A stretch of DNA of 44,636 nucleotides from Patescibacteria group bacterium (GTDB taxonomy: Bacteria; Patescibacteriota; Microgenomatia; UBA1400; PJMF01), in contig JAHIVK010000054.1 in the NCBI GenBank assembly GCA_018816385.1, forward strand, positions 1-44,636, read 5' to 3'. The position numbers were made by a program, and so were the translations under genes. Of this stretch, positions 20,696 through 33,423 are shown piece by piece (the first letter of the stretch is position 1; each line of letters starts with the position of its first letter). The notes beneath the pieces are model-generated. The model saw only the letters and a list, made by a program, of their open reading frames with translations, did not search any database and was not told where the DNA came from.

Positions 20696-20998
20696 TTACA
20701 TCTGGAGAGAATCATTTGAATCGACACTTTGCCATCTTTGGGCTTGATCGACACTATCCACCATAATGGTGACTTCGTCGCTGGGTGAAACTGTTAAAAA
20801 GCCATTGGATACGGTCATTGATTTCCAAACATCAGCCTTTAAGTAAAGGAGTTCCCCCTCTTTGATTCTGGTAAATAAAGGAATGTGTCCAGGCAAAATA
20901 GTGATCATACCTTGGACAGCTTGGGCCGAAACAGCTTCGACTTCTGTAGATAAAAGTTCTTTTTCTTGTGAGACTATCTGCAGTTTGAGTTTGGCCAT
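20696..20998 (-). CDS. atpC: F1Fo ATP synthase epsilon subunit (short)
   Basis: KLKLQIVSQEKELLSTEVEAVSAQAVQGMITILPGHIPLFT; operon position. Confidence 0.9.
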   Translation of the reverse strand: MAKLKLQIVSQEKELLSTEVEAVSAQAVQGMITILPGHIPLFTRIKEGELLYLKADVWKSMTVSNGFLTVSPSDEVTIMVDSVDQAQRWQSVDSNDSLQM

Positions 20999-21003
20999 GA
21001 TAT

Positions 21004-23278
<2,275 letters not shown>

Positions 23279-23284
23279 ATAATA

Positions 23285-24814
23285 TTACTTAGATTGTTCT
23301 AACATCAATTCCGGATGTAAACTGTTAAAAGTTTTAACTATTTGATGCAGTTCTTGATCAATGTCTTCGGTTAATTTGGCTTGATTTTTGATTTCACTCA
23401 AAAGTTTGCGATGATTGGAGTGCATGTACTTGATGTATAACTGCTCCCACTCGGTGATAGCTTTTTCTTCAACTGGGTCAAGATAACCCTTGACTGCCGC
23501 AAAAATGATCACCACCTGCTCTTCTGGTTTGAGGGGTTGGTCCCAACCTTGTTTTAAGATGGCATTAACCCTAATACCTCTATCTAGTTGAGCTTTAGTT
23601 TTTTCATCCAAATCAGAACTAAATTGAGAAAAGGCTTCCAATTCTCTAAATTGAGCTAGATCTAATTTCATAGTGCCAGCCACTTGTTTAGTGGATTTAA
23701 GTTGAGCTGATGAGCCGACTCTAGAAACAGACAAACCAATATTAATAGCTGGTTTCATGCCAGCGTTAAACAGGTCAGTTTCAAGATAGATTTGACCATC
23801 AGTAATTGAGATGACATTAGTGGGAATATAGGCAGATACGTCTCCAGCCTGAGTTTCGATAATTGGCAGAGCAGTAATTGAACCTCCGCCGTATTTATCA
23901 TCTAGTCGGCAAGCTCTTTCCAGTAGCCTGGAGTGAAGGTAAAAAACATCACCAGGATAGGCTTCTCTACCAGAAGGACGACGCAGTAAAAGTGAAATTT
24001 CTCGGTAAGCTTGAGCGTGTTTAGTTAAATCATCAAAAATGATTAACACATCTTTGCCTTGATCTAAAAAGTATTCGGCTACAGCTTGACCAGTGTAGGG
24101 AGCTAAGTATTGGGCGGCGGCAGTATCAGAAGCGCTGGCCGAGACAATTATGGTATGATCCATAGCTGATCTTTCGGTTAAGACTTGAGTAATTTGAGCC
24201 AGTGAAGCTCGTTTTTGACCAATTGAAACATAAACACAAACCACATCACCAGCGGTTTGATTAAGGATGGTCCCCAGGGCAATAGCCGTTTTGCCTGTAG
24301 ACCTGTCACCAATAATCAGCTCTCTTTGGCCTCGACCAATGGGAATCATAGCGTCAATGGCTTTGATGCCAGTATGCATAGGGACCGAGACTGATTTGCG
24401 TCGAATCACTCCAGGAGCAATTTTTTCTAGAGGCATGAATCTTTTTGGTTTAATAGGATTGCCGCCATCAATCACCTGTCCTAGACTATCAATAGTTCTA
24501 CCCAGAATACTGTCTGCTACTCCAACTGACAGGACTCGGCCGGTTCTCTTAACAGTTGAACCAGCTCTCAAATGCATAACGTGTCCTAGGGCGACAATAC
24601 CCACGCCCTCTTTTTTGAGATTTAAAGCTAAACCAAACTCACCCTGGCCTAGATCAATTAATTCGCTAATTTGAGCAGAATCTAGTCCAGAGACTTCTAT
24701 GATGCCGTCACCAAATGATTCAACCGTGCCCACAGATTCAGACTGGGGTGATAAATCTGCATCTTGAATTAATTCCTTGAGAGACTCTGAGAATGAGGGA
24801 CTGAGTTTATTCAT
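23285..24814 (-). CDS. atpA: F1Fo ATP synthase alpha subunit
   Basis: GRGQRELIIGDRSTGKTAIA, operon context. Confidence 0.98.
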   Translation of the reverse strand: MNKLSPSFSESLKELIQDADLSPQSESVGTVESFGDGIIEVSGLDSAQISELIDLGQGEFGLALNLKKEGVGIVALGHVMHLRAGSTVKRTGRVLSVGVADSILGRTIDSLGQVIDGGNPIKPKRFMPLEKIAPGVIRRKSVSVPMHTGIKAIDAMIPIGRGQRELIIGDRSTGKTAIALGTILNQTAGDVVCVYVSIGQKRASLAQITQVLTERSAMDHTIIVSASASDTAAAQYLAPYTGQAVAEYFLDQGKDVLIIFDDLTKHAQAYREISLLLRRPSGREAYPGDVFYLHSRLLERACRLDDKYGGGSITALPIIETQAGDVSAYIPTNVISITDGQIYLETDLFNAGMKPAINIGLSVSRVGSSAQLKSTKQVAGTMKLDLAQFRELEAFSQFSSDLDEKTKAQLDRGIRVNAILKQGWDQPLKPEEQVVIIFAAVKGYLDPVEEKAITEWEQLYIKYMHSNHRKLLSEIKNQAKLTEDIDQELHQIVKTFNSLHPELMLEQSK

Positions 24815-24843: not shown

Positions 24844-24868
24844 TAGACTTTCTGCGGCAGAAAGTCTA
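24844..24868. repeat. 25-nt mini-palindrome TAGACTTTCTGC-G-GCAGAAAGTCTA overlapping the atpH stop
   Basis: 12-bp perfect arms; the atpH TAG stop (24866-24868) lies in the right arm. Confidence 0.9.
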
Positions 24869-25300
24869 TTGTTGTTGAAGTATTTTTTTTATTTTTTCCA
24901 GTTTGCTGGCAATTGTGCCGTCATATTCGGTTGATCCCACTCGAACTTTAAGACCACCAACCACCTTTGGATCAATGACTTCTCTAAAGTCGATGGGTCC
25001 TTGGTTTTTTTCAATGGCTTGTTTGATTTTTTTTCTTTGATCATCTGATAGTTTGACAGCTGTGACCACGGTGGCAGTTGGCAATTGAGATTGAAGCTTG
25101 GCCAATTTACCGGCAATCGTGACGTCAAATTCTTTAAGACCAACCGTAATTTTTAATCCGCCAATAACCCCCGAATTAACCACTTCCTTCAACTCAAACT
25201 CTTGACCAATTTTACGCCTGATTTCACTCTCAACAGCTTTTTTTTGAGTTGGTGTTAATTTGTGGGCAGTGGTAATGACAACTCTTGGTTGATTGGTCAT
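24866..25300 (-). CDS. atpH: F1Fo ATP synthase delta subunit, apparent tandem duplication of the C-terminal domain
   Basis: Operon position between b and alpha; two copies of an LTxxQ...V(I/V)GGLK(I/V)xVG...TIAxKL pattern. Confidence 0.85.
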   Translation of the reverse strand: MTNQPRVVITTAHKLTPTQKKAVESEIRRKIGQEFELKEVVNSGVIGGLKITVGLKEFDVTIAGKLAKLQSQLPTATVVTAVKLSDDQRKKIKQAIEKNQGPIDFREVIDPKVVGGLKVRVGSTEYDGTIASKLEKIKKILQQQ

Positions 25301-25307
25301 AAATTAT

Positions 25308-25793
25308 TTATATTTGTTTCAAAAACAGATTAAGTTCTTGGTCAATCAGTTTTGAGTGTTGAGCAGAAGTCAATGAAGTGCCCACAACTTTGGCACTGGT
25401 TTGAATGACTGCTTCGGCTAGTTGATCGTTCATACCTTTGAGCATTTGTTCCTTTTCATTGACCCACTTTTGTTTCAAAAGTTCAACTTCTACTTGAGCC
25501 TGTTGTTTTGCCTCTTCAATGATTTGAGTTTTGGTAGTGCTAGCTTCTTTGGTGGCTTTGTCCAAAATTTGAGCTGATTTTTCATTCAGTTCTTGTTTGG
25601 TTTTCTCTCCTAGCGCCTCAATTTGTTCTCTTTGCACCAAAGCTTCTTCAGCCGCCTTTTGTCCTTCGGCAATTCTTTTTGATCTCTCATCAAAGACTTT
25701 TAAAATGGGTTTATAGAGTAGCACAGACAGACTGCCAACAACCACCAAAAAGTTGATGGCTTGAAACAAAATTTGGGGAAATTGAATATCCAT
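25308..25793 (-). CDS. atpF: F1Fo ATP synthase b subunit
   Basis: N-terminal TM, long charged helix, KPILKVFDERSKRIAEG. Confidence 0.95.
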   Translation of the reverse strand: MDIQFPQILFQAINFLVVVGSLSVLLYKPILKVFDERSKRIAEGQKAAEEALVQREQIEALGEKTKQELNEKSAQILDKATKEASTTKTQIIEEAKQQAQVEVELLKQKWVNEKEQMLKGMNDQLAEAVIQTSAKVVGTSLTSAQHSKLIDQELNLFLKQI

Positions 25794-25814: not shown

Positions 25815-26039
<225 letters not shown>

Positions 26040-26053
26040 TTATAAATAATTAC

Positions 26054-27007
26054 TTAATGTTCTTCGTGACCTTGGGTGGCCATGTTAAAAAATACCAGCG
26101 ACAACATAGAAAAAACTAAGGCTTGAATAAAACCCACAAATAGCTCCAAGCCGTAAAAAGGCATAGGCACCACCACGGGAATTAAAAAAGTGATGACTAC
26201 CAACAGCACTTCGCCGGCAAAGATATTGCCAAATAACCGGAAAGCAAACGAGATAATTTTGGCAAACTCGGAAATAAGCTCCAGCAGGCCTACAAAAAAA
26301 TCAATGGGACTGGCAAGATTAAAGAATTTTTTGAGGTAAGAAAACTTGAGGGTCATTAGACCAAAAATTTGAGTAGCAATGACTGAAGTAATTGCCAAAG
26401 CTAAAGTCGTGTTGAGGTCAGCACTACCGGGACGGAAAACAGGAGCCTTAATTTGATGATTGCTAGCTTCAATTAATTCTTCTTTAGTGAACATATCTAA
26501 ATCATTGACAATATTGGTTTCTGTTTCAACTTGATGTTGGAGAGTGATCTCATGATTGGGGTCAGCCTGATGCTGGTCTGTTTCTAGGTGTTGATTAACT
26601 TCTTCCAGTGTCACTTCAATCGCCTCAAGTTCATTGGTTATAGTCACTTCATCTTGTTCGGCAATAGGCGTAGTAACTATGGTACCCACACCCGGCAATA
26701 AGCCGAACCAGTTGTTAAACAGGATAAACAAGAAAAAAGTTGCAAAAAATGGTAAAAATCGGCGTGTTTTTTTGGCGTCTCCAGTGATAGTTTGGATAAA
26801 GCTTTGTAAAGTCTCAATTAGCCACTCAGCAACATTTTGTAAACCTTTTGGTTTATTTGTAGATTTAAGTTTAAAGCGAACTATCAAGGCAAACGCAATC
26901 ATTACAAAACTAACAATCAAGCTGGTTAACATTGAGTTAGTAATTTGGAGATGGCCAATTTGGAATAATGGTTCAGCTGAAATTGAAATATGTGGACCAG
27001 TTGCCAT
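26054..27007 (-). CDS. atpB: F1Fo ATP synthase a subunit with large acidic loop
   Basis: NNWFGLLPG, SADLNTTLALA, FAFRLFGNIFAGE (conserved Arg), C-terminal FVGFIQALVFSMLSLVF. Confidence 0.96.
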   Translation of the reverse strand: MATGPHISISAEPLFQIGHLQITNSMLTSLIVSFVMIAFALIVRFKLKSTNKPKGLQNVAEWLIETLQSFIQTITGDAKKTRRFLPFFATFFLFILFNNWFGLLPGVGTIVTTPIAEQDEVTITNELEAIEVTLEEVNQHLETDQHQADPNHEITLQHQVETETNIVNDLDMFTKEELIEASNHQIKAPVFRPGSADLNTTLALAITSVIATQIFGLMTLKFSYLKKFFNLASPIDFFVGLLELISEFAKIISFAFRLFGNIFAGEVLLVVITFLIPVVVPMPFYGLELFVGFIQALVFSMLSLVFFNMATQGHEEH

Positions 27008-32236: not shown

Positions 32237-32510
32237 GTCATTCTCCTCGCGTAGCGGGGGGAATCCAGTGGTTGGTCTCATACTCCTGGATCCCCGCTGG
32301 CGTGAGGATGACAGACCCTCTGGATCCCCGCTGGCGCGAGGATGACAGACCCTCTGGATCCCCGCTGGCGCGAGGATGACAGACCCTCTGGATCCCCGCT
32401 GGCGCGAGGATGACAGACCATCTGGATCCCCGCTAGACCCCGCCCAAGCGGGGGGCGCGAGGATGACAGACCCTCTGGACCCCGCCCAGGCTGGGCGTGA
32501 GGATGACCAG
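32237..32510. repeat. REP-type array with 34-bp tandem units
   Basis: aggatgacagaccctctggatccccgctggcgcg at exact 34-bp spacing (atg ending 32310, 32344, 32378, 32412), then degenerate units; inverted REP at 32237. Confidence 0.92.
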
Positions 32511-33423
32511 TGCCCGCGGGTTTATTTTGATGAACAGTCTGATTAAGTTCATCCAAAGCTTGTTTAGCCTCGGCTTGATTTGGGGCTCGCCCGTGCCAAT
32601 CGGGATTATTTTCCATAAACGACACGTCCTTGCCAGCCGTCGTGTGGCAGATAATGGCAGTTGGTAGGTGGCACGTGCGAGCCCCATTCAGAGCCCAACT
32701 AATTTGATCAAAATTATGGCCATCAATTTCTACCACTTGCCAATTGCAACTGGTAATTTTTTCGGCCAGTGGTTCCAAGGGGGCAATTTCCTGGGTGGTA
32801 CCATCAATTTGGATGTCATTGCGATCAATCAGAACAGTCAGGTGAGTTAAATGATGAGCGCCAGCGTAACGATAGGCTTCCCAGATTTGGCCTTCCTGAT
32901 GTTCCGCATCACTGGTTTGGACAAAAATGTGGTTGCTTTTGTGGTCTAGTTTGAAAGCTGTGGTCAGACCGCAACCCAAAGACAAACCCTGGCCCAGCAG
33001 ACCCGATGTATTCTCTACCCCCGGCAGTGAACCTTGGTGAGGGTGGCCTTGGAGACGTGAGCCAAACTGTCTTAAAGACCCAAGTTCCTCAAGGGGAAAG
33101 TAACCGGCTTGGGCTAACGTCGCATACCAAACCGGACAGACATGACCATTGGAGAGCAGAAAATAATCGCGCTCTGGCCAGTCCGGTTGATGAGGTCTCT
33201 GCTTGAGGACAGCAAAATAAAGACCAGTCATCACATCAGCCAATCCCAGCGACCCGCCAGGGTGGCCACTGCCGGCCCCAGCGATCATCTCGATCACGTG
33301 GCGCCTAATCTTTTGGGCGATAAAAGCTAACTCCGAGGGAGTTTTTGTTAAACTTGTCGCGAAATGAGGGAAATGATTAACCGGTTTCTTATTTCTGGGC
33401 ACATCTCTTGTCTGATCGGGCAT
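32278..33423 (-). CDS. Transketolase, N-terminal subunit with repeat-encoded C-terminal tail
   Basis: GAGSGHPGGSLGLADVMTGLYF, LSNGHVCPVWYATLA; tail TGHPHAQPGRGPEGLSSS... lies in the REP array. Confidence 0.9.
   Translation of the reverse strand: MPDQTRDVPRNKKPVNHFPHFATSLTKTPSELAFIAQKIRRHVIEMIAGAGSGHPGGSLGLADVMTGLYFAVLKQRPHQPDWPERDYFLLSNGHVCPVWYATLAQAGYFPLEELGSLRQFGSRLQGHPHQGSLPGVENTSGLLGQGLSLGCGLTTAFKLDHKSNHIFVQTSDAEHQEGQIWEAYRYAGAHHLTHLTVLIDRNDIQIDGTTQEIAPLEPLAEKITSCNWQVVEIDGHNFDQISWALNGARTCHLPTAIICHTTAGKDVSFMENNPDWHGRAPNQAEAKQALDELNQTVHQNKPAGTGHPHAQPGRGPEGLSSSRPPLGRGLAGIQMVCHPRASGDPEGLSSSRQRGSRGSVILAPAGIQRVCHPHASGDPGV

Follow-up and report, generated by a model that had tools for sequence, protein, structure and literature searches.

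The delta subunit of the ATP synthase encoded in the window analysed here, that is, the whole 44,636-nucleotide stretch of contig JAHIVK010000054.1, consists of two consecutive delta C-terminal domains (CTDs) and has no N-terminal domain (NTD), which we regard as confirmed and, as far as the sequence facts are concerned, as close to certain. What determines the number of peripheral stalks, and with it the proton cost of ATP, has previously been tackled by engineering (PMC12229609), and one bacterial order offers a natural series of delta architectures, namely short NTD, lone CTD, tandem CTD, and CTD built into alpha. Comparing the members of this series tests whether it is the NTD that limits the number of stalks, how much a CTD can hold on its own, and whether a second CTD can replace the NTD, and also bears on the running of ATP synthase in minimal, energy-poor cells.

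A delta subunit of two C-terminal domains

The gene, in the atpH position at 24866..25300 on the minus strand, starts with ATG and encodes 144 amino acids, exactly where the preliminary description had placed it. Its first domain (T1, residues 7-73; 25082..25282, minus strand) and its second domain (T2, residues 76-140; 24881..25075, minus strand) both match PF00213 and a CTD model (E = 9e-25 and 1e-25, respectively), with T2 also being supported by VIA-align, and are connected by a very short joint at about residues 72-75 (25076..25087, minus strand), where one predicted helix ends at residue 71 and the next strand starts at residue 75. PF00213 (Pfam OSCP) is a 172-position profile with a curated cut-off of 22.3 bits, and the whole 144-aa protein, at 108.2 bits, meets the membership of this family. 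Submitted alone, the T1 half matches only positions 101-172 of the profile (E = 6.5e-15, 56.1 bits) and the T2 half only positions 105-172 (E = 1.9e-16, 61 bits); several NCBIfam delta models also match with their CTD part in both halves. Hence, the earlier proposal that both halves belong to the delta/OSCP CTD is borne out, and the possibility that only one half does, which would have refuted it, is excluded, each half matching by sequence. The two halves also align to each other nearly end to end, as had been claimed, with 27 of 68 aligned residues being identical and a local score of 126 that was reached in none of 2000 shuffles of the second half (shuffle maximum, 58).

Since the CTD matches span residues 7-73 and 76-140 of 144, no residues are left in the protein for an NTD, and no N-terminal helical domain was found in the rest of the genome either. 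When all 999,501 bases of the genome were searched with PF00213 at E<=10, T1 and T2 were the only matches, with no other delta/OSCP, and an NTD profile built from 19 sequences had no match in any of seven genomes, these being G000 and six other CTD-only, tandem or fusion genomes (G414, G047, G415, G411, G386, and G301). The same profile was positive in all four full-length controls (G212, G314, G026, and G334) and matched a short-NTD control (G070) weakly and in two pieces. A short NTD could therefore escape this profile; however, the window protein offers no room for one. With the CTD present twice, the gene located between b and alpha, and the N-terminal six-helix domain absent, the protein has the same CTD sequence, fold, and gene place as canonical delta/OSCP (PF00213; PDB 6oqr_W, 9o19_W, and 6n2y_I) but differs from it in the missing NTD and the second CTD, and we therefore class it as a delta-CTD variant rather than as a canonical delta.

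The AlphaFold2 model, obtained with a 33-row alignment (pLDDT 88.0, pTM 0.57), contains no helix bundle; the normal N-terminal six-helix bundle that would have contradicted the preliminary description was looked for in the model and is not there. The order strand-helix-strand-strand-strand-helix occurs twice, with predicted strands at residues 6-11, 36-41, 50-53, and 56-58 and helices at 17-31 and 63-71 in the first half, and strands at 75-80, 104-109, 117-121, and 124-127 and helices at 86-100 and 130-143 in the second. At a pTM of this size the prediction gives no reliable arrangement of T1 relative to T2, and the alignment-free prediction was weak (pLDDT 58.6). It is important to note that MAFFT put all 32 added single-CTD rows on the second half, leaving the first half without homologues in the alignment; consequently, the predicted fold of the first half rests on a homologue-free prediction plus its own profile matches. 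The top Foldseek matches were delta/OSCP chains, and VIA-align matched residues 73-143 to a Pseudomonas delta CTD with a Z of 11.9 and an rmsd of 1.2 over 71 residues, its matches outside delta/OSCP having a Z of about 6 or lower. These structural matches mostly cover the second half, and the first half was barely probed because its homologues were missing from the alignment.

The surrounding operon is complete, in the order a-c-b-delta-alpha-gamma-beta-epsilon, with all genes on the minus strand. It encodes subunits a (317 aa; 26054..27007; PF00119), c (71 aa; 25815..26030; PF00137), b (161 aa; 25308..25793; PF00430, E = 2.7e-15), alpha (509 aa; 23285..24814; PF00006, E = 9.6e-84), gamma (22406..23278; PF00231), beta (463 aa; 21004..22395; named from its sequence and operon position, without a separate profile scan), and epsilon (100 aa; 20696..20998; N-terminal sandwich domain only, matching PF02823 only). 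In known enzymes subunit b is the partner of the delta CTD, and the N-terminal helix of alpha, whose region in the window (residues 5-21; 24752..24802, minus strand) was assigned from sequence only, is the usual partner of delta.

Distribution and history of the tandem

A survey of related delta genes, which had been suggested as a check, found the same architecture in nine of the 42 genomes of the window's family (G000, G208, G414, G428, G429, G433, G434, G435, and G438). The remaining family members carry a lone CTD (20 genomes; 19 by model and G431 by eye), a CTD-alpha fusion (two; G411 and G412), a short NTD (seven; G408-410, G413, G416, G417, and G440), or no delta match (four; G343, G406, G407, and G421), and the b subunits of the lone-CTD relatives have the same length as the window's. 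The delta protein, when used as the query against genome contigs, yielded no related loci, and alpha was used as the query instead. The 166 alpha-bearing loci, one per genome, comprise 94 with a short NTD, 34 that are CTD-only, 12 with a long NTD, nine 'long or odd', nine tandem, five CTD-alpha fusions, and three unclassified, the last representing, by eye, a full-length delta (G334), a lone CTD (G431), and a locus with none seen (G299). A 167th locus (G443) was left out, there being no alpha on its piece. The loci were drawn from the 30 best PF00213 matches, 20 hand-picked loci, 69 from an order search, and 60 that were mostly one per family, excluding divergent second operons and the few loci that occurred more than once, and given this mixed choice the set is not a random sample.

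A class-wide search of 373 genomes with the tandem protein matched 53 at E<=1e-5. Full-length matches among those listed were G000, G438, G428, G435, and, weakly, G208; the tandems of G414, G429, G433, and G434 were not among the matches listed. In several further genomes the matches were long but weak (22-33% identity; e.g., residues 11-140 for G598) and lay in frames of 130-154 aa, which we took to be short-NTD deltas, without their loci having been read, and did not count as tandems. Of the 80 named bacterial loci that were compared, a CTD match was present in 78, of which 61 showed at least 85 residues before the CTD, 13 were intermediate, four were CTD-only (one of these, L183, starts near a contig edge and may be cut), and none was a tandem.

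The alpha tree (72 rows; four loci with incomplete alpha, including tandem G438, were left out) contains a family core of 29 rows (100/97) with only CTD-only, tandem, and fusion members. The fewest changes on this tree are three for the tandem, two for the fusion, and four for NTD presence, or four, two, and five, respectively, when the first 60 columns are dropped. A single clade of all eight tandem rows, when enforced, was rejected (p = 5e-5), and one without G208 was not (p = 0.354). In the single-domain tree (66 rows and 67 columns, with many forks unresolved) the eight main-group T1 domains group together in a single clade (98/78) and the data do not reject a corresponding T2 clade (p = 0.193), indicating one duplication that was kept and diverged, while both G208 halves fall within the G208/G377 genus clade. 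Taken together, the two trees show one old, inherited duplication in eight genomes and one independent, younger duplication in G208. The G208 copies are identical to each other over about 80 bases, and thus gene conversion or misassembly is possible in that genome; its first copy is also without its last helix.

Amino-acid-changing differences were well below silent ones in all 14 comparisons, and dN/dS was 0.07-0.24 in the five of these that were unsaturated (three for T2 and two for T1), synonymous sites being mostly saturated. Neither the GG nor the motif D varies among the T1 domains (8/8) or among the T2 domains (8/8). When scored with a profile built from 61 canonical bacterial CTDs, T2 was higher than T1 in 9/9 tandems (means of 58.7 vs. 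48.7 bits for the eight main-clade tandems), and the same was true against the lone-CTD profile in 8/9 (the exception being G414).

In other genomes the CTD is fused in frame to the N-terminus of alpha, i.e., at L107 (G411), L085 (G412), L119 (G387), L120 (G386), and L247 (G254), and none of these five loci has a separate delta gene between b and alpha. The G411/G412 and G386/G387 fusions have separate origins on the alpha tree, and G254 belongs to a third family. Two further candidate fusions were rejected: a b-delta fusion, suggested by a C-terminal CTD in seven ORFs (195-235 aa) whose N-terminal regions are long, divergent, and without b features, and an alpha-gamma fusion in G429 (a 798-aa ORF), which is an artefact of a masked-N run.

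Seven genomes assigned to the family (loci L054, L059, L063, L081, L091, L100, and L114) have short-NTD deltas, and their alpha genes branch away from the family core, as though the atp operon had been swapped. G415 was observed to contain a second, divergent F1-like operon (L117, 5620-10712, minus orientation), with b-like, delta-like, alpha, gamma, beta, and epsilon genes and no a or c gene beside it. Similar divergent alpha genes are found in L071, L089, L093, L095, L118, and L121, other members of the order carrying alpha genes that share only 32-43% identity with the window's.

Known enzymes and the possible role of the second domain

Of the three alpha N-termini of the canonical enzyme, one contacts the delta CTD and the other two contact the NTD, which is located on the three-fold axis (PMC12229609). 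Because the domain touching two of the three alpha N-termini is missing, we infer, in line with the preliminary description, that the stator top of the window enzyme is rearranged, although the manner of the rearrangement is not shown. According to the same paper, a PS3 enzyme in which the delta NTD was removed and the CTD joined to alpha has up to three stalks, the fusion construct containing 2.2-fold a and 1.8-fold b with an H+/ATP of 5.8 vs. 3.0. The authors attribute the limit of one stalk to the NTD and describe Acidaminococcus fermentans as having a natural delta-alpha fusion that is NTD-less; the CTD-alpha fusion layout is therefore not new. The window has the NTD-less delta in common with both PS3 deltaDeltaN-alpha (PDB 9jc1) and the Acidaminococcus fermentans fusion, whereas its CTDs, unlike those of the PS3 construct, form a separate tandem ORF that is unfused to alpha, the fused state occurring in five relatives. 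Of the features of an NTD-less multi-stalk ATP synthase, the window shows the missing delta NTD but not the fusion of the CTD to alpha.

Among solved structures, Chloroflexus aurantiacus (PDB 9itj series) provides the best match for a (6.8e-59, the next solved match being at 1.8e-25), b, gamma, and delta of the window; alpha is not closest to it. Its delta is shortened (157 aa, with the CTD from about residue 83) and has a single CTD, in contrast to the two CTDs of the window delta. The deposited chains amount to 18 alpha, 6 gamma, and 12 delta in 6 entries and to 36 a and 72 b in 18 entries, which, by arithmetic on PDB chain counts only, gives each entry three alpha, one gamma, two delta, two a, and four b; on this basis alone, the Chloroflexus aurantiacus ATP synthase appears to be a natural two-stalk F-type enzyme. 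In N-ATPases, delta is absent or fused to b and the gene order is beta-epsilon-X-X-a-c-b-alpha-gamma (PMC11738941), a definition that does not fit the window with its separate delta and its a-c-b-delta-alpha-gamma-beta-epsilon order. The C-terminal part (177-244) of the N-ATPase subunit b model (TIGR03321) matches both window halves; there, the CTD is part of b, whereas the window has a b of normal size (161 aa) and a separate delta gene. A literature search, which could not reach most subscription journals, found no tandem-CTD delta and no paper on the delta architecture of these bacteria, and the tandem is absent from the 78 named bacterial loci with a CTD match and from the solved structures listed. 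Within these limits, the delta of tandem CTDs seems to be a new form of a known subunit; NTD-less CTD-alpha fusions, engineered and natural, have already been published (PMC12229609).

As a tentative best explanation, to which we give somewhat less than an even chance, we favor the hypothesis that the NTD was lost and that an additional CTD fills its place beside the stalk-binding CTD, restoring one stalk per motor; this is inferred, no complex having been modelled. The lineage would first have lost the delta NTD, with many relatives living with one lone CTD, and in the tandem branch a CTD copy would have taken over the vacated place. T2 would then do the known CTD job of holding both the b-dimer stalk and one of the alpha N-terminal helices (an inference without binding data), while T1, held by the joint of about four residues, would sit at the former NTD place towards the centre of the F1 crown and make a second F1 contact that holds the head against torque. 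The tandem might, in other words, be a repair by which one stalk per motor is again enforced. Consistent with this hypothesis, the short joint puts T1 next to T2, like the NTD in a normal delta, T1 is on the N-terminal side and is the more diverged half, and the closer resemblance of T2 to canonical CTDs is what would be predicted if the original function stayed with T2 while T1 acquired a different one. On the other hand, T1 keeps the CTD hallmarks, which are unneeded for an NTD-like job unless they serve the fold only, and the fact that 20 of the 42 family genomes manage with one CTD means that a second F1 contact is not essential.

Alternatively, each CTD could hold its own b-dimer on a different alpha, giving two stalks, two a subunits, and about twice the protons per ATP. 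We find this doubtful, if worth keeping in mind: T1 and T2 both keep the CTD signature, the NTD is missing from the three-fold axis in a manner that, in the PS3 CTD-alpha fusion, goes with up to three stalks (PMC12229609), and the a, b, gamma, and delta of the window find their best solved match in the apparent two-stalk enzyme of Chloroflexus aurantiacus; yet this closeness may be kinship only, alpha not being closest to Chloroflexus, T1 is the less canonical half in 9/9 tandems, and a joint of about four residues looks too short for alpha sites 120 degrees apart (inferred, with the distances unmeasured). Extended to the relatives, the same idea would hold that NTD loss released the one-stalk rule and that lone-CTD, tandem, and CTD-alpha-fusion members have two or three stalks and a doubled or tripled H+/ATP, the tandem being a covalent two-stalk cap, an extension that we view with comparable doubt. 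It is unlikely, in our assessment, that T1 and T2 each bind one b of a single b-dimer, making the stalk top more symmetric. The single b gene of the operon does imply a b homodimer, and N-ATPases, with delta absent or fused to b (PMC11738941), would carry one CTD per b, the NCBIfam model of their b matching both halves as described above; however, known enzymes use one CTD per whole b-dimer, with E. coli delta being contacted mainly by one b (PMC6131620), and the length of b is unchanged in the lone-CTD relatives. That T1 is a passenger, i.e., a domain copy retained through linkage and without a role of its own, seems improbable, since it has been kept in eight genomes of five genera with near-constant length and joint and with low dN/dS in the unsaturated comparisons, even though its greater distance from canonical CTDs and the lost last helix of the first G208 copy would fit such a scenario. 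Finally, the genomes are drafts, several of them known metagenome assemblies, and the identity of the G208 copies over about 80 bases would be compatible with an assembly or annotation artefact; for the window, this can practically be discounted, given that its halves have diverged (27/68 identity) and the same layout is found in seven other genomes.

The alpha N-terminal helix and minor observations

In CTD-only and tandem genomes the region of the alpha N-terminal helix is present, mostly scoring far from the canonical pattern, and the helix of the window is the most canonical among the tandems. With 47 training rows, the score was above threshold in 20/26 cases with an NTD vs. 5/40 without, and raw scores differed strongly between CTD-only plus tandem and short-NTD genomes (Mann-Whitney p = 4e-13) in a previous scoring in which a few rows, such as G451 and some of the training rows, were wrongly cut. 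By eye, a recognisable helix is missing in four of the five natural CTD-alpha fusions and kept in G254; in G411 and G412 the last CTD helix runs almost directly into the alpha barrel. A change of the alpha helix coupled to NTD loss was nonetheless not accepted: the pair test was not significant, with three to four supported independent contrasts, and the strong raw trend is carried by few independent events and remains a hint only.

A few additional features of the window were noted. Epsilon (20696-20998) lacks the C-terminal helices, which in other bacteria act to inhibit hydrolysis. Subunit a (26054-27007) has an acidic insertion of about 65 residues, where the Chloroflexus subunit has about 36 and the chloroplast one few. 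Outside the operon, at 32278-32700, a transketolase-like ORF continues at its end into repeated translations (e.g., CHPRASGDPEG), as though a repeat element overlapped the 3' end of this gene.
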